A program made the position numbers and the translations under genes. A stretch of 63,393 nucleotides of DNA from Thermogemmatispora onikobensis (GTDB lineage: Bacteria > Chloroflexota > Ktedonobacteria > Ktedonobacterales > Ktedonobacteraceae). The stretch is from contig NZ_BDGT01000036.1 of NCBI RefSeq assembly GCF_001748285.1, positions 1-63,393 on the forward strand, written 5' to 3'. The notes under the pieces were generated by a model. It made no database searches. It saw nothing but the letters and a program-made list of their open reading frames with translations, and was not told the origin of the DNA. This document shows positions 55,606 to 63,393 of this stretch, piece after piece; the stretch's first letter is position 1; each line of letters starts with the position of its first letter.

Positions 55606-55947
55606 ATGAAGAAGCTGGTTGCCTTTCCCCTGGAGGATGGTGGGCAGGTGGTGATTGAGGTTGAGGAGCCGGAGCCGGAAGGGGGCGAGCGGGTCCCGGT
55701 CTCCCGCCGCCTGACGAGGCCGGAGCAGGCGTCGGAAACGCTGGAGAAGGCGCTGCAGAAGGTCCTACCGGCCATCAAGGCAGTGGCAGAGAAATTACAT
55801 CATCTGGATCTCAAGCCCGACGAGGTTGAGATCGCCTTTGGGATCAAGCTCAGTGCTTCGCTGGGCGCTATTCTGGCCACTGCTGGCAGCGAGGCCAATT
55901 TCGATATTACGCTGCACTGGTACGGCAAAGATCGCCCAGTGCGCTAG
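55606..55947 (+). CDS. Trypsin-co-occurring domain 1 (CU044_2847-like) protein
   Basis: 113 residues from the ATG at 55606 (GAGGAGAG upstream). The longer frame from 55387 is not supported. The N-terminus is beta-rich (VAFPLEDGGQVVIEVEEPE), then a helix (ALQKVLPAIKAVAEKL), then DEVEIAFGIKLSASLGAILATAGSEANFDITLHW, which is the conserved core of the small domain found beside trypsin-like proteases in predicted conflict systems. The next gene does encode a trypsin-like protease. It may sense a signal or be the protease's partner or substrate. Confidence 0.78.
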   Translation: MKKLVAFPLEDGGQVVIEVEEPEPEGGERVPVSRRLTRPEQASETLEKALQKVLPAIKAVAEKLHHLDLKPDEVEIAFGIKLSASLGAILATAGSEANFDITLHWYGKDRPVR

Positions 55948-55994
55948 CGCTGCTTAGTGGGCCGTGGGAGCTGCCGCACCGCTCCTGCGGTCCA

Positions 55995-56023
55995 TTGACA
56001 TCCAGGGTGACAAGCTGTATATT
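55995..56023 (+). promoter_or_regulatory. Strong sigma-70 promoter of the protease-helicase operon
   Basis: TTGACA at 55995-56000 and TATATT at 56018-56023, 17-base spacer. The predicted start of transcription is near 56030, about 50 bases before the protease-kinase ATG. No operator-like palindrome is obvious beside it. Confidence 0.65.
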
Positions 56024-56078
56024 TGAGACGCATTCACCAGGAGTAATATTGACCTGTCTGGAATGCTGAGTCATCTCG

Positions 56079-57638
56079 ATGCCAGCTTTTGAAGAGGCTA
56101 TTCGGCGCGCTATTGTTCGAATCCTTGCTTCGCCCGAGCATACAAGTGTCTGCGGTGCCGGCTTTCTGATCGCCCCGCGCCGGCTTCTGACCTGTGCTCA
56201 CGTGGTGAGCACAGCTCTGCAGTGCTGGGAGCCAGAGGAGCTGAAGAGGCACGCAATACTGCTTGACTTCCCTTTTCTCAATGCTCGTGAGCCGTTGCAT
56301 GCCTCCATTGTCCACGTGGACCCTTCTCAACAGCACGATCTGGCCGTCCTTGAGTTGCGCGACCGGGCACCGGCGGAGGCCCGGCCCGTGCCTCTGAAGC
56401 GGTGTGGGACTTTCTGGGATCATCCCTATCGTGTGTTGGGCTTCAGTGATCAGTTTGGAGAAGGCGTTTGGGCCGAGGGCCACCTCCAGGGAGAGGATGG
56501 AACGGGCGCTATCCAGATGGCCAGCCATTCTGGTTCTGAGCATGTTATTCGGGAAGGTTTCAGCGGCGCACCCGTTTGGGATGAGACAGAGGAGGCCGTG
56601 GTTGGGATGGTAAGCGAGGTCATTCGGTGGGGCTCGTATGACAGCCGCCCCGTGATGCTGCCTCTACGGCACCTATGCCAGAGCTGGCCGGAACTCGTTA
56701 CTTACCTCATTCGCGAGCCGTCTGCGCCTGTTACAGCGCCCCGGGCTCCTGCCGATCCTTTCATAGAGCAAGAGTGGCAGCCTGGTCAGCTCATCACAAT
56801 TGACAGCGGGCAGTATCTGCTGACCGAGCGTTTGCGAGAAGAGACCAGTTCCGACCCGCCAGCCCTGGAGCGCTGGTATCTGGCTCGCCCTTTTCCGCCG
56901 AAGGAGCAGAAACGACGCCGGGGCATTGAGCATGTGCTCATCAAGCAGATCGTCCTTCGCCTCCCAATGGCAGAGGGAGCGCGTTTGTTACAACAATTGC
57001 GGAATGAGAGTGAGCTACTGATGCGGCTTCGAGCGGGTACGATTTTCCCTACTCTCCTGGTGACCGAGACCGGCTCCCAGAGCTTTACGCTCGTGCAGCG
57101 CTATCCCCCAGGTCGGCCTGTAAGTCGCTATTTCCCCGAGCAAGATCAGCCGGCTGACCTTTTTAGAGCGCGGGAGCTGTTACGTGCATTGCCGCCTTTT
57201 TGCAGTCAGTTGGCCGCGCTGCACCGGCTTGGGGCTGCCCATCGCTATCTTTGTGGTGACAGCCTGATCATGGAACCGCGCCGGCATGGCCCACCTGTCT
57301 TGCGCTTGCGTGATCTTGGACTGGCCACACGACCCGCCTGCGCTGGTGAGGGGCCCCGAGGGTATGCCGCCCCCGAGCAGCTCTACGCCCGCTATTCGAT
57401 ACCTGGCACCGACCTCTATCAGCTGGGGGCCTTGCTCTACCATCTGCTGACCGGCAAGTTGCCCGGCTCCTTCATGTATGGGTTAGCGCCTCCTTCCAGC
57501 TTGCAGCCGGAGCTTGCCCCGGCGCTCGATTCTGTCATCATGCGCGCACTTGCACGAGAGCCGGCGCAGCGCTGGCCTGACCTGGACACTTTTGCCAAGG
57601 CTCTCAACAGCGTCTTGCAAGACTGGTCTCGCGCGTGA
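56079..57638 (+). CDS. Trypsin-like serine protease fused to a protein-kinase-like domain (probable pseudokinase)
   Basis: 519 residues. Residues 1-215 are a trypsin-like domain with His41 (TCAHVV), Asp87 (HDLAVLEL) and Ser162 (EGFSGAPVW). Residues 240-515 are kinase-like: a lysine in HVLIKQIVL (289), APEQ at 431-434 and the helix region GTDLYQLGALLYHLLTGKLP. The catalytic HRD reads HRY (388-390) and DFG reads DLG (412-414), so the proton-accepting Asp is absent and phosphotransfer is unlikely. The kinase part may sense a ligand and control the protease. No signal peptide, hence cytosolic. It has its own promoter and a weak ribosome site. Confidence 0.85.
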   Translation: MPAFEEAIRRAIVRILASPEHTSVCGAGFLIAPRRLLTCAHVVSTALQCWEPEELKRHAILLDFPFLNAREPLHASIVHVDPSQQHDLAVLELRDRAPAEARPVPLKRCGTFWDHPYRVLGFSDQFGEGVWAEGHLQGEDGTGAIQMASHSGSEHVIREGFSGAPVWDETEEAVVGMVSEVIRWGSYDSRPVMLPLRHLCQSWPELVTYLIREPSAPVTAPRAPADPFIEQEWQPGQLITIDSGQYLLTERLREETSSDPPALERWYLARPFPPKEQKRRRGIEHVLIKQIVLRLPMAEGARLLQQLRNESELLMRLRAGTIFPTLLVTETGSQSFTLVQRYPPGRPVSRYFPEQDQPADLFRARELLRALPPFCSQLAALHRLGAAHRYLCGDSLIMEPRRHGPPVLRLRDLGLATRPACAGEGPRGYAAPEQLYARYSIPGTDLYQLGALLYHLLTGKLPGSFMYGLAPPSSLQPELAPALDSVIMRALAREPAQRWPDLDTFAKALNSVLQDWSRA

Positions 57639-57656
57639 GGAGGAGGCAGCCAGGGA

Positions 57657-60600
57657 ATGCAGGAAAGCAGTTTCAAGCTCCGTGTCCTTGTGCTTGTCGT
57701 TGGCAAGCTCGCCCTGATCTTGCCGGAGCTGCGGCGGCGCTATCCCGCCTGGCCTGCCAATGTGGAACGTCTCCAGGAGGAGCTGGAGCGCTCCTATTCC
57801 CGGATTCCTGTCCTGGTGCGCCCTGATCGGGAGCGCGGACAGCCGTATCTTCTGCTCTGCACCGGTACCTATGCCTTGAAAGTGGTCCTTTCATCCCAAG
57901 GCGACGCCTACATCGTCCTGAGCCTGCAGCCGCTTGGCCACCGGGAGCATGATGCCCTGGCTCGCGGCGAGGCCCTCATGCTGGAAGTGGGAAGGTGGTA
58001 TCTTGTCAATGGGTTTAATGAGATCCCGCGGGCATGGCAAGAGTGGCTCATCAATGACTATAAGCAAATCATCGAGGCCAGTCAGAGACATCAGGCGAGG
58101 CTGCGCGCCCGGCAGGCGGCCCTGGCAGAGGCCCTGCTCGCTCAGGCAGAACAGGAGGCTCTCACTCCGGCCCAGGAAGCGCTACTAGCGACCCTGGAGC
58201 GCACCATCCACTTGACACGCGAGATTGAGAAGGCTAACGAGGAGAGCAAACAGCCCATCTTCTACAGGCAGGTCGATGCCGCCGGTGAGGCTCGCTACAG
58301 CAGCCGCGATATCTATATATTTAGCTTGGTCGATCCTTCCCAGGCAGCGCAGTTAGAGCGCGGCCTCTTTCTGGCGCTGGAAGAGCGCAGAGAGCTACGC
58401 GGCCATGTCCTGGACGTTCAGGGCGATCGCTTCATCGTTCAGTTTGAGCACGCTATCGATCTCGATGATCTGCGCCCGCCGAAAGCCTTCCTGCTGCTTG
58501 GCAGTGAGGCAGCCTTTCGCGTGCAGCAGGAGGCCATCGAGAGGCTGCGCATCGGAGAGGCAGAGAATCCTTCTCTGCTGGCGGTCCTGGCAGAAGGTCG
58601 CTATCAGCCCTATTCAGAACCTCTGCCCCAACCTCACCCGCACCTCAACGCGGCTCAGGCGACCGCCTTCCGGCGGGCTTTAGCTGTCAAGGATCTGCTG
58701 CTGGTGCAGGGACCGCCGGGGACGGGCAAAACGCATACGATCAGTGAGATTGTGCGCGCTTGCGCCCGCCGAGGTGAGCGCGTGCTGGTAACCGCGCGTA
58801 CGCATAAGGCGGTCGATAACGTGCTCCAGAGCCTTCCTCGGGAGCTGGATATCTTGCGTGTCGGTCAGGAGCTGCTGGTCTCGCCAGAAGTGAGATCGCT
58901 TTTGATCGATGAGCGCGCCCGTTCGTTGCAGACTAGCCTGCTCAAGGCAACTGCAGAGCTGCTCCAGGCGTACGAGAAGCTGGCCGCACACCAGGATGAG
59001 ATCGATCGTTTTGTGGCACTGGGTCCTCGGATTCAGGCGCGGCTCGCAGAGCTGAACGCTGCCTGTAGGATGAGCTGGATGCGCTATAGCCAGGAACAGC
59101 AGCGCCTACAGGCAATGTTCAGCCAGGAGCGCGAGTCTCTCCAGCAGCGTTATGCCGCGAGTCAGCAGCAGCTGGAGAAGATCCGCCGGCGCGGTGAGCG
59201 CCTGACTCGCAGCGTCACCAGGGCCAGGAGTCGTCAGCATTGGCCGCTGCTGGGCGCTTTCTGGCGCTGGCGCCTGCCGCGCTTGCAGCGGCGCCTGAGA
59301 GAGCTGCAACAGGCTTTTCAGACCACCAGTGGGCAGTTACAGCAGCTAGCCTCTCATCTGGCTGTCCTGGACAGACGCTTTGCTCAGCTTGAGCAGGAGG
59401 AGCCGCTCATCTCTCTGCGACGCCGCTACGAGCAGGCAGCGAGCGCTTTCCAGCAGGAGCAGGAGCATGCCTCACGCCAGCTCAACCGCCTTCTGATGGA
59501 CTTGAGGGCGCTGTTTCCAGCTCAGGAATTACCCGCGCTGGCCAGCGATTATGCTTCGTTGTTGCAGTCGCTACAGGACTTTGCGCAGGGCTGGTCGCTT
59601 CGCCTGCGTTCTCTCTTCACCCACCGGCTGCAGTTGTTACGGGACTGGCATCATACGCTGGAGGTTCGTCACCAGGACCTTTATCCGTCTCTGTTGCGTA
59701 TGGCTAACGTGATCGGCGCTACCTGCATTGGCTCGGCGACGGCACGCATTCTTTCCGATGTGACCTTTGATCTGGTGCTTGTCGATGAGGCGGGTCAGAT
59801 CAGTCTCGCTGATCTGCTAGTACCGCTGGTGCGCGGCAAACGCGCTGTGCTGCTCGGCGACCATCAGCAGTTGCCGCCGATCGTCGATCAGACGGTGCGC
59901 CAGCGCCTGGCTGCTTTGAGCCAACAGGCGGCGATAGGCGAAGAAGAGGGCGGCGAGGAGGCGGTGAGCGATATTGAAACGCTGCTCTCTAAGAGCATGT
60001 TCGAGATGCTGGTTGAGCGGGTTGATGAGCAGCATTTCGTCATGCTCACTGAGCAGTATCGTATGCCCGAGCGCATTGCCCGCTTTGTCTCAGCGCAGTT
60101 CTATGGCAACAGGCTTCGGACTGCCAGTCTCCCTCGTTTGTGGCATGCTCGCTGCGAGAGCGATCCTTTGTTTCCTGCCTCTTTTACCTTTATTGATACG
60201 GCGGAGATGGAGAGTTCCTATCGCATGGAGCGCGGCCACTATTACAACGATGCCGAGGCCAGGATCATTGTTGAGCTGGTGCTGCGTGCGCTGCAGCAGG
60301 GGCGGGATTGGCGCATTATTGTGCCCTATCAGGAGCAGGCCGCTTACATCCGCGAGTTACTCAGGCAGGCAGCGAGCGAGTACGGTCTTGAGCTGCAGGC
60401 GCTGATCGCGACGGTTGACTCGTTCCAGGGGGGCGAAAGTGATCTGGTGCTCTATAGCTTTACGCGCAGTAACCGCCGTCATGCGATCGGGTTTCTGCAA
60501 GAGCACCGGCGCTTGAATGTGGCGCTGACGCGGGCGCGTGAGCAGCTGATCCTCGTCGGGGATAGCGATACGTTGCTCAATGCGATGAGCGGAGGCAGGC

Positions 60601-60716
60601 CCGCCGAGGATTTTCGCCGGTTGATGCGGGATCTACTTGAGTATGCTCGCTGTCAGGGGGAATGCTTGAGTTTCCGCACCTGTCGGGCCCGCCTGGCGCG
60701 CGGCAGCGTGGCCTGA
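57657..60716 (+). CDS. SF1 helicase of the Upf1/Dna2-like group with long coiled-coil insert
   Basis: 1019 residues, 18 bases after the protease gene. The N-terminal 330 residues include a beta-rich region with no named domain. The helicase core has Walker A GPPGTGKT (352-359), a coiled-coil Gln/Arg/Leu-rich insert (about 430-650), motif II VLVDEAGQ, motif III GDHQQLPPIV, motif IV/V LTEQYRMPERIA and VDSFQGGESDLVL, and motif VI LNVALTRAREQLILVGD. It probably translocates on and unwinds DNA or RNA. Large helicases of this type occur in defence systems, and its neighbours support such a role. Confidence 0.88.
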   Translation: MQESSFKLRVLVLVVGKLALILPELRRRYPAWPANVERLQEELERSYSRIPVLVRPDRERGQPYLLLCTGTYALKVVLSSQGDAYIVLSLQPLGHREHDALARGEALMLEVGRWYLVNGFNEIPRAWQEWLINDYKQIIEASQRHQARLRARQAALAEALLAQAEQEALTPAQEALLATLERTIHLTREIEKANEESKQPIFYRQVDAAGEARYSSRDIYIFSLVDPSQAAQLERGLFLALEERRELRGHVLDVQGDRFIVQFEHAIDLDDLRPPKAFLLLGSEAAFRVQQEAIERLRIGEAENPSLLAVLAEGRYQPYSEPLPQPHPHLNAAQATAFRRALAVKDLLLVQGPPGTGKTHTISEIVRACARRGERVLVTARTHKAVDNVLQSLPRELDILRVGQELLVSPEVRSLLIDERARSLQTSLLKATAELLQAYEKLAAHQDEIDRFVALGPRIQARLAELNAACRMSWMRYSQEQQRLQAMFSQERESLQQRYAASQQQLEKIRRRGERLTRSVTRARSRQHWPLLGAFWRWRLPRLQRRLRELQQAFQTTSGQLQQLASHLAVLDRRFAQLEQEEPLISLRRRYEQAASAFQQEQEHASRQLNRLLMDLRALFPAQELPALASDYASLLQSLQDFAQGWSLRLRSLFTHRLQLLRDWHHTLEVRHQDLYPSLLRMANVIGATCIGSATARILSDVTFDLVLVDEAGQISLADLLVPLVRGKRAVLLGDHQQLPPIVDQTVRQRLAALSQQAAIGEEEGGEEAVSDIETLLSKSMFEMLVERVDEQHFVMLTEQYRMPERIARFVSAQFYGNRLRTASLPRLWHARCESDPLFPASFTFIDTAEMESSYRMERGHYYNDAEARIIVELVLRALQQGRDWRIIVPYQEQAAYIRELLRQAASEYGLELQALIATVDSFQGGESDLVLYSFTRSNRRHAIGFLQEHRRLNVALTRAREQLILVGDSDTLLNAMSGGRPAEDFRRLMRDLLEYARCQGECLSFRTCRARLARGSVA

Positions 60717-60774
60717 ATGAAGCTGGGCAGCATCGTGCGGCAGGCGGGCGAGAAGCAGGAGAGGGGTCCGTCTG

Positions 60775-62025
60775 ATGGAGACGAGAGGGGAACGTCTCAG
60801 GAATCTTTTTGTTTCTCCGAACCGCGTCGTCGAGATCGTGCAGGCTATGGGGGAGCTGGTGCCGCTGCGTCAGTTTCGCCTGCTGTTTCCTCTGTGGCGG
60901 GTGAGTATCAGTGGCCGTCAGTATGAGAAGCGCCCTTATGAGTTGCTGGAGCGTTTTCTTGAGCGCGCGATCGGTGAGGCGGAGCTGCGAACAGCAGCAG
61001 AGCTGGTGCGCTTTTTTGGGCTGCCGCCGGCAGCCGTTGCGAAGATGCTGGACTTTTTGCGGACGGTGGGCCATGTCAGCGGCGATGATGCGGATTTGCG
61101 TCTGACCGAGCTGGGACAGGCTTCGCTGCAGAGTGGGCTGTTTCTGCGTCCGTTGGAAAGTCAGCGCTTGCTCTATTTTGAGGCGTTTGATTCGCAGCCG
61201 CTGCCACGGAGCTACTATGAGCGTGAGTCACTGATTCTCTCGGAGGTGGAGGCGGAGGCGGCGCGATTGGGCGACCGCACGATGACGCGCCTGTACAGTG
61301 ACTCGTACTTCGATCCTGAACGGTTGCGGCAATTGGCCAGGCGAGGTGACCGGGAACAGTATAATTTGCCGTCTGAGCTGGAGCTGGGGCCTAATGCAAT
61401 CCGGCAGGTGGCGCGGGCCTATTTTCCGTTGACGGTGGTCGAGGCTCACGCTTATGATGAGCACTATCGGCATGCTGTAAAGAAACGCTATCTGGCGTTC
61501 TCTCCTGTCGCTGGTTATCGTGATCTCTTTTTCGAGCGGCTGATTCAGGGGAAGCCGGCGATTGCTTATTCGTTTCCTGAGCTGGACGAGGGCAACGTTC
61601 CCAAGGTCATCGAACGCTATGCTTCGCGTCAGGGGTTGCAGCTTCCGGATGAGGCGCGGATTGCGCGCAACGCTGCTGGCCTGTGGCAGCTTGTGCTCTC
61701 GCCGCGCCTTTTTCAGGCGGCCAGCACAGGCGAGCGGCAGCCTTTGCGCCCGAGCGATGTGGGCAATGTGCGTCAGGAGAATGGGTATTTTTTCCAGCTC
61801 TGGTGTAAGGACGAGCAGCTGCGGCGCCGTAGTGCTCTGGAGCAGACGCTGCTCTTTGTTGAGCGCGAGCAGCGTCGGAGACAGCCGCTTTTCCGCGGGT
61901 CCTTGCTTCAGGTAATGGGGCATATTTGTAAGCGTCTGGCGGTGCCGGTGCCGGATTGGCCGGAGCTGGTAGATTTTGCGCGAGAGCAGGGACGCGAGGA
62001 CCTTCTTGAGGAGTTTGAAGCGTAA
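60775..62025 (+). CDS. Unrecognised 416-residue protein of the protease-helicase operon
   Basis: I do not recognise a family. The start has GGAGAGGGG upstream. Residues about 50-105 (RTAAELVRFFGLPPAAVAKMLDFLRTVGHVSG...LRLTELGQASL) look like a winged-helix domain. The rest mixes helices and short strands, with YSDSYFDPERLRQLARRGDREQYNLP and QENGYFFQLWCKDEQLRRRS as distinctive stretches. No catalytic motif or membrane segment is seen. It lies 58 bases after the helicase, is the last gene before the CRISPR array and may be the operon's DNA-binding or target-recognition part. Confidence 0.6.
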   Translation: METRGERLRNLFVSPNRVVEIVQAMGELVPLRQFRLLFPLWRVSISGRQYEKRPYELLERFLERAIGEAELRTAAELVRFFGLPPAAVAKMLDFLRTVGHVSGDDADLRLTELGQASLQSGLFLRPLESQRLLYFEAFDSQPLPRSYYERESLILSEVEAEAARLGDRTMTRLYSDSYFDPERLRQLARRGDREQYNLPSELELGPNAIRQVARAYFPLTVVEAHAYDEHYRHAVKKRYLAFSPVAGYRDLFFERLIQGKPAIAYSFPELDEGNVPKVIERYASRQGLQLPDEARIARNAAGLWQLVLSPRLFQAASTGERQPLRPSDVGNVRQENGYFFQLWCKDEQLRRRSALEQTLLFVEREQRRRQPLFRGSLLQVMGHICKRLAVPVPDWPELVDFAREQGREDLLEEFEA

Positions 62026-62212: not shown

Positions 62213-63393
62213 ATTCCAGTATCCTCGTGCGGGTCGTCCCCTCTGCAATGTCACAACCTGTACTATCTGGAATACGAGCAAGACCTTTCAGTATCCTCGG
62301 TACAGATCGTCCCCTCTGCAACATTTCTGCAGCCAGCAAGTAGATGCTTCCTTTAAGTCTTTCAGTATCCTCGTGCGGATCGTCCCCTCTGCAACTGCTA
62401 AGAGACCTCCTCTGGGCCTCAAGCAGTTCTCTTTCAGTATCCTCGTGCGGATCGTCCCCTCTGCAACGCCTACCCGTCAGCAATGCGCATGTTGCCCTCA
62501 CTGCACTTTCAGTATCTTCGTGCGGTTCGTCCCCTCTGCAACCAGGTCACGCGGTTTCTGGGCTTCCATAGCCCTGCAGCTTTCAGTATCCTCGTGCGGT
62601 TCGTCCCCTCTGCAACTAATGCGGCTCGGTGGATCGGTCATGCGGAGAATCCAGAGCCTTTCAGTATCCTCGTGCGGTTCGTCCCCTCTGCAACCAGGTC
62701 ACGCGGTTTCTGGGCTTCCATAGCCCTGCAGCTTTCAGTATCCTCGTGCGGATCGTCCCCTCTGCAACTCTTAAGAGCGCCAGGCGATGATGGTCATGCT
62801 GGATCCTTTCAGTATCCTCGTGCGGATCGTCCCCTCTGCAACTCCCCCAGAAACCAACCGCCGCGCAATGACATGCACACCTTTCAGTATCCTCGTGCGG
62901 ATCGTCCCCTCTGCAACGACGCTGGAAAACGCCGATATAGACCGGGTTGGTACTTTCAGTATCCTCAGGCGGATCGTCCCCTCTGCAACGCGGCTCAAAA
63001 TGCTTTTGTTTGCGTGAGGCGGTTTTTCTTTCAGTATCCTCGTGCGGATCGTCCCCTCTGCAACGTGTTGTAAAGTGTTTGCGATTGTTTGCTATTGTCC
63101 CTTTCAGTATCCTCGTGCGGATCGTCCCCTCTGCAACTGAGTGACTCTTGACACGATGCCGTTCTTCTTAAAAGCTTTCAGTATCCTCGTGCGGATCGTC
63201 CCCTCTGCAACGAGTTAGCGGCCTGGCTGAATCGGAACGGATGGCATCTTTCAGTATCCTCGTGCGGATCGTCCCCTCTGCAACCTCCTTTTTCCCCTTC
63301 TTTCCCCCTTTCTTTTGGGGCTTTCAGTATCCTCGTGCGGATCGTCCCCTCTGCAACAATGCCCTACGTGCGCATGGCTTGCCCAATGATACA
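62213..63393 (-). CRISPR. CRISPR array, 16 repeats of 37 bp, continuing beyond the right edge
   Basis: Repeats start (plus-strand positions) at 62213, 62285, 62359, 62431, 62506, 62580, 62658, 62732, 62806, 62881, 62953, 63028, 63101, 63175, 63248 and 63321. Each begins CTTTCAGTATCC and ends CCCCTCTGCAAC, 37 bases. The 15 complete spacers are 35-41 bases. The first two repeats are degenerate (the second is 38 bases, with GTACAG for TGCGG). Repeats 5-7 carry GGTTCG for GGATCG. Spacers 5 (62543-62579) and 7 (62695-62731) are identical. Read on the minus strand the repeat ends ACTGAAAG, like a crRNA 5' handle, and decay at the left marks the old end, so transcription is probably leftward from a leader outside the window. 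No cas genes are seen. Confidence 0.97.

Follow-up and report, generated by a model that had tools for sequence, protein, structure and literature searches.

The stretch analyzed here (the window) is the 63,393-nucleotide (nt) contig NZ_BDGT01000036.1 of Thermogemmatispora onikobensis, toward the end of which four co-directional genes encode a Trypco1 (trypsin-co-occurring domain 1) protein, a trypsin-like protease fused to a predicted pseudokinase, a UPF1-like superfamily 1 (SF1) helicase of the MkoA family, and a winged-helix protein related to MkoB. We consider it likely that these genes form the trypsin version of an anti-phage system that arose from the Mokosh lineage, is modular, and probably acts by abortive infection. 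Its core, comprising the pseudokinase, the UPF1-like SF1 helicase, and the winged-helix protein, is constant among related cassettes, and the effector fused ahead of the pseudokinase is variable. The features of the window are as follows, with protein lengths in amino acids (aa); numbers preceded by L, G, or C in the text are our labels for loci, genomes, and contigs.

55606-55947, + strand: Trypco1 protein, 113 aa (Pfam PF19493, 4.1e-26)
55995-56023, + strand: candidate promoter-like site in the interval between the Trypco1 and protease genes (TTGACA, 17 nt, TATATT; 11/12 consensus match)
56079-56730, + strand: trypsin-like protease domain (effector) of the 519-aa fusion (Pfam Trypsin_2, 2.9e-13, whole profile)
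56760-57638, + strand: predicted pseudokinase domain of the same 519-aa fusion, residues ~228-519 (Pkinase, 1.8e-8; PknB-like fold)
57657-60716, + strand: UPF1-like SF1 helicase of the MkoA family, 1019 aa (AAA_12, 3e-47; AAA_11, 3e-41; PADLOC MkoA, 5e-115)
60775-62025, + strand: MkoB-like winged-helix protein without a PLD nuclease, 416 aa (PADLOC MkoB, 1.1e-10)
60925-61140, + strand: winged helix of this fourth protein, residues 51-122 (AlphaFold2 model and structure match)
62213-63357, + strand: CRISPR array, 15 repeats of 37 base pairs (bp); a neighbor, probably outside the system

All four open reading frames (ORFs) proposed by the first-pass annotation are present on the + strand, separated by gaps of 131, 18, and 58 bp, with the protease-pseudokinase fusion encoded as a single gene (56079-57638, + strand) and a divergent P-type ATPase gene upstream of Trypco1. 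Their association is more than chance, because four Thermogemmatispora genomes share the operon (the window's own and G020, G021, and G022, with Trypco1 90-100% identical) and the order of the last three genes is kept in another phylum. A further congener (G024), otherwise lacking the operon, contains a short MkoB-like stretch with stop codons (C2:137367-137507) near a piece resembling the window's P-type ATPase gene, an apparent remnant of the operon. To recover cassettes more widely, we used a segment of helicase motifs against genome contigs and a profile of MkoB-like proteins without PLD against whole genomes; gene calls in GC-rich loci are our own choices of ORF. The pseudokinase, helicase, and MkoB-like genes were found in a fixed order in Chloroflexota and Actinomycetota, where they nearly touch or overlap, and the family of the fourth protein occurs in 14 of the 395 sampled Actinomycetes genomes and in 8/400 sampled Chloroflexota genomes. 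The first-pass annotation had treated the four genes as one unit, a view that would fall if their homologs were scattered in other genomes or if the set proved to be part of housekeeping. Neither was observed: the three core genes do keep company in a fixed order as a wider cassette, but the complete set of four was seen in one genus only.

The kinase part of the fusion finds its best fold match in PknB (9.7e-13) and aligns with positions 55-282 of PADLOC MkoA (7e-13). In the window its HRD motif reads HRY, the Asp being replaced by Tyr, and the DLG (DFG) and APE motifs are kept, which upholds the earlier reading of this part as a pseudokinase. The catalytic Asp of HRD is absent from each of the 27 aligned cassette kinases (the window, L057, L058, L071, nine actinobacterial loci, and L170-L183); all five canonical MkoA kinases compared keep both HRD and DFG. 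The DFG Asp is retained in all cassette kinases but that of L182, where the frame stops early. At the VAIK lysine position, Chloroflexota have K and Actinomycetota have R. These motifs predict a pseudokinase incapable of phosphorylation.

The helicase covers positions 430-1096 of the 1112-position PADLOC MkoA profile, has intact SF1 motifs, and matches TIGR00376 (IGHMBP2-family helicase) at 1.6e-74, under the cutoff of that model; at 1019 aa it is of ordinary size within its family and not the "very large" protein first described. Two helicase trees were built, a quick one and a careful one with fewer rows. Both recover canonical MkoA as one group (Shimodaira-Hasegawa-like approximate likelihood ratio test [SH-aLRT] 99 for the former and 100/100 for the latter), and the cassettes form a second group together with L065, a locus with helicase and MkoB-like genes only (98 and 97/94, respectively). 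Sister to these are loci from Azospirillum (L053), an Aliarcobacter metagenome-assembled genome, and a betaproteobacterium (L070 and L072) that combine a helicase of the same branch with a distant MkoB-like protein. The Azospirillum locus (L053:4309-12761) encodes a large PP2C/kinase protein, which we judge to include a NERD-like part, a second kinase with intact motifs, the helicase, and the distant MkoB-like protein, in which no PLD match was found. Within the family of the window's genus, three loci (L048, L049, and L050) are of the canonical Mokosh type I kind, with a kinase-helicase fusion and a longer MkoB. Two other genera of the family (L032:9596-12623 and L033:9906-12989) carry a degenerate helicase of ~700 aa that has lost Walker A, adjoined by a shortened MkoB-like protein (~290 aa) and with no kinase attached.

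The fourth protein was initially described as unrecognized, and this stands insofar as neither Pfam nor NCBIfam assigns it to a family, but PADLOC matches it to MkoB, with the match confined to positions 8-204 of 610. An hhalign comparison of 15 PLD-less MkoB-like proteins with nine canonical MkoB proteins aligned only the N-terminal half (97.6%, E 2.8e-12, 194 columns); the fourth protein is homologous to this half of the MkoB of Mokosh type I. Its AlphaFold2 model (predicted local distance difference test score 87.9) contains a MarR-like winged helix at residues 51-122 (Z 11.7); a Foldseek search with the protein gave no match at E < 0.001, and the winged helix is the one part that could be placed. 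We read region ~300-603 of the MkoB model as the PLD nuclease, because it is the only region with hits to many further proteins, both in relatives and in control genomes, because PLDc_2 or MkoC is what canonical MkoB proteins match in this part, and because the nine canonical proteins share the invariant residues H400, K402, and D407. This part was not found in the fourth protein or in the relatives scanned, either with Pfam or as an HxK...D motif in the alignment.

The position N-terminal to the pseudokinase is occupied by different effectors in different cassettes. In Thermosporothrix hazakensis (G025; L031, identical to L071), a caspase-pseudokinase fusion precedes the core (Peptidase_C14, 5e-21; PADLOC, 2e-22). 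The commonest effectors in actinobacterial cassettes resemble LmuA and the Avs2 N terminus: PADLOC places an LmuA/Avs2-like nuclease domain in L061, L171, and L176 (LmuA scores of 2.6e-48, 2.2e-38, and 4.6e-48 among cassettes; Avs2 N terminus, 1.5e-11), and the others, L172-L174 and L177-L183, align with the domain in L061, L171, and L176, sharing the motifs GDxGIDV and WQxKYF. No PDB or Pfam match was found for the nuclease-like domain of L061. Other cassettes bear a SEFIR domain (L059, L060, and L067, the last apparently split across two frames; Pfam, 2e-16; bSEFIR, 1.7e-28 for L059), a TIR domain (L073 and L175; TIR_2, 6.5e-31), a CBASS-type nucleosidase (L170; PNP_UDP_1, 5e-32; CBASS PN-superfamily effector, 3.5e-22), or DUF4145 (L069), and the N terminus of L064 received no domain from Pfam or PADLOC. 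On both helicase trees, the distribution of the TIR effector requires two changes on supported branches; the LmuA-like label requires three changes, which may represent one gain and two losses. The defense reading proposed in the first-pass annotation is supported in that the domains standing in place of the trypsin are mostly known defense effectors, but the protease is just one of several interchangeable effectors. As an observation beside these, L172:139-3614 contains, ~1 kb upstream of the LmuA-like cassette, a McrBC component (1.5e-39) preceded by a 741-residue ORF.

In the window, Trypsin_2 (PF13365) spans residues 26-177 of the fusion, with the kinase fold C-terminal to it. The protease triad is probably H41, D87, and S162 (window numbering), and the motifs are kept in three species; the trypsin domain alone gave no PDB sequence match at 0.01. 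Trypco1 is present in a single copy in the window's genome; tblastn recovered it from the Thermogemmatispora loci but not from any further cassette locus searched, a distribution that marks it as an accessory restricted to the trypsin version of the cassette. Beside the protease it may serve as an adaptor, an inhibitor, or a first substrate.

The identity of the effectors, the patchy distribution of the cassette, and its kinship with Mokosh together suggest a role in defense, for which we infer a course of four steps. The helicase and the winged-helix protein would monitor nucleic acid and bind an abnormal RNA or DNA species of the phage, a sensing role proposed by analogy with UPF1-like helicases, which act on RNA and single-stranded DNA (PMC11090510), and with HamB, the helicase that serves Hachiman as its sensor (PMC12278908). 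By ATP-driven movement or assembly, the helicase would then alter its contact with the pseudokinase, which could pass the signal to the effector as a conformational or oligomerization switch. Finally, the trypsin-like domain, with Trypco1 as its dedicated partner, would be activated, and proteolysis would halt the cell or the phage. We lean slightly toward a broader view, in which the cassettes constitute an undescribed immune family, modular like CBASS, Avs, and Lamassu, whose pseudokinase would be a universal socket on one helicase/winged-helix sensor core for proteases, nucleases, TIR/SEFIR domains, and nucleosidases, with Trypco1 replacing the metallo-beta-lactamase pro-nuclease in the trypsin version. 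If so, the Mokosh lineage would have yielded an effector-swapping branch in which a dead kinase is an adaptor between a UPF1-like sensor and many killing domains, and Trypco1 would gain a minimal context for testing its role beside a trypsin-like protease. The cassettes would also be natural chimeras, with the same core and different effectors, for questions of helicase sensing and of how the signal reaches the effector.

Several points weigh against this interpretation. The sequences themselves show which domains and residues are present, that gene order is conserved, and that effectors are swapped; the four steps and the anti-phage role are inferred, and a phage assay exists for no cassette. 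Loss of the HRD Asp predicts loss of kinase activity without proving it, and the motifs of canonical MkoA kinases were taken from just five proteins. The trypsin domain yielded no confident structure model from its shallow alignment, and with the trypsin domain and Trypco1 seen in one genus only, the choice of a trypsin effector is a single event. Three cassettes (L063, L066, and L068) have only a short N terminus, in which Pfam and PADLOC found no effector. Relatives of the fourth protein were found neither on plasmids nor, by tblastn, on viral contigs, so that mobility of the cassette is suggested by its patchy distribution alone. Among 120 neighboring proteins, PADLOC counted 86 families at 1e-15, versus 8 among 120 control proteins from the same genomes, but the listed families behind this count are mostly kinase models matched by two proteins, and the neighbors are not clearly enriched in defense genes.

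Of the other explanations, a divergent Mokosh type I, which either obtains its PLD and kinase activities from another source or can do without them and to which the protease is an add-on, would account for the best PADLOC matches being MkoA and MkoB and for a gene order like that of canonical loci. We regard it as unlikely given the lack of PLD, the dead kinase motif, and a kinase unfused to the helicase; moreover, canonical MkoA is a separate, fully supported group, and in Thermosporothrix (G025) a cassette coexists with a locus of the kinase-helicase plus MkoB-with-PLD type. Alternatively, the locus might belong to housekeeping or stress RNA surveillance, with the helicase and winged-helix protein handling RNA and the protease clearing damaged or stalled proteins. 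Thermogemmatispora species are thermophiles, and the two relatives that keep a degenerate helicase with a short MkoB-like protein may point to another role; UPF1-like helicases also function in eukaryotic RNA quality control (PMC11090510). The distribution of the cassette is nonetheless patchy even inside one family, one congener has a remnant, and the effectors are exchanged for toxic defense domains, all of which makes such a function distinctly improbable.

Two further readings were set aside. A regulatory or social signaling protease system resembling VMAP, not specifically anti-phage, would suit the multicellularity of actinobacteria and Ktedonobacteria, and it would fit the definition of Trypco1 within VMAP ternary systems (PMC7159879). 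It is nevertheless very improbable: the operon has no vWA, MoxR, or VMAP domain, its core is of the Mokosh lineage, and VMAP systems are themselves predicted conflict systems, so that the main difference would be the trigger. As for the cassette being an accessory of the adjacent array, CRISPR does lie beside the operon as first noted, the array beginning ~190 bp downstream (about 62213) with a ~74-bp period and a degenerate repeat nearest the operon, and an array also adjoins the operon in three congeners. However, an identical or near-identical repeat forms arrays on five contigs of the window's genome (C14, C36, C96, C23, and C31), those on contigs other than the window's being without the operon, and cas1 is on two further contigs (C59 and C26). 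No cas gene was recognized by eye in ~20 kb beyond the array of T. carboxidivorans, where ORFs were not profiled, and no CRISPR link turned up at other cassette loci, although no search was aimed at one. Because no fewer than four contigs besides the window's have the repeat and cas1 lies elsewhere, the neighborhood is weak evidence of a link; the array is probably a mere neighbor, and the chance that the cassette serves it is minimal. Within the array, a repeat-spacer unit is duplicated (62506-62617 and 62658-62769, 98% over 112 nt).

A pseudokinase-helicase-MkoB cassette was not recognized as described in the literature searched, which was largely without subscription papers. Trypsin-like proteases at the N termini of HamA, Avs1a, and LmuA act in tested defense systems, and with HamA or Avs1a as the partner they switch on a metallo-beta-lactamase pro-nuclease (PMC12799240); beside these nuclease-protease pairs (Hachiman, AVAST, Lamassu, and DRT), a related pathway (canu) uses a caspase instead, like the caspase of Thermosporothrix. 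The window differs in having Trypco1 upstream of its protease in place of the metallo-beta-lactamase pro-nuclease (its upstream genes are Trypco1 and the P-type ATPase, and none of the four Thermosporothrix neighbors scanned belongs to that family) and an MkoA-like helicase as its sensor core. With Lamassu (LmuA) and Avs2, the cassettes share an LmuA/Avs2-like effector and a fixed core whose effectors are exchanged, but that core is a helicase, a pseudokinase, and a winged-helix protein rather than the Lamassu/STAND core. The definition of Trypco1 comes from the VMAP ternary systems of multicellular bacteria, where it neighbors trypsin-like peptidases (PMC7159879), and in the window Trypco1 (PF19493) likewise adjoins a trypsin-like peptidase (PF13365), but vWA, MoxR, and VMAP are absent both from the operon's proteins and from the P-type ATPase next to them. 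CoCoNuT types II/III similarly place a UPF1-like helicase in a predicted RNA-targeting defense system (PMC11090510); the window operon, in contrast, has no McrBC-type GTPase or coiled-coil nuclease.

The closest comparison is with Mokosh type I, which by definition combines a helicase and a serine-threonine kinase domain with a PLD nuclease encoded by a gene of its own (PMC11672841). Like it, the window has a UPF1-like (COG1112) helicase of the MkoA family, a protein-kinase fold, the same kinase-helicase-MkoB order, and, following the helicase gene, the N-terminal domain of MkoB. Mokosh type I has several subtypes in DefenseFinder, one of which might cover some of the cassettes. In the canonical loci compared here, however, kinase and helicase form one protein, whereas the kinase of the window lies in a separate protein; the cassette kinase lacks the HRD Asp and is predicted to be dead, the fourth protein has no PLD nuclease, and a different effector stands ahead of the pseudokinase. 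Because it departs from Mokosh type I in the fusion, the kinase motif, and the PLD nuclease alike, we did not file the cassette there and regard it as Mokosh derived rather than Mokosh itself.
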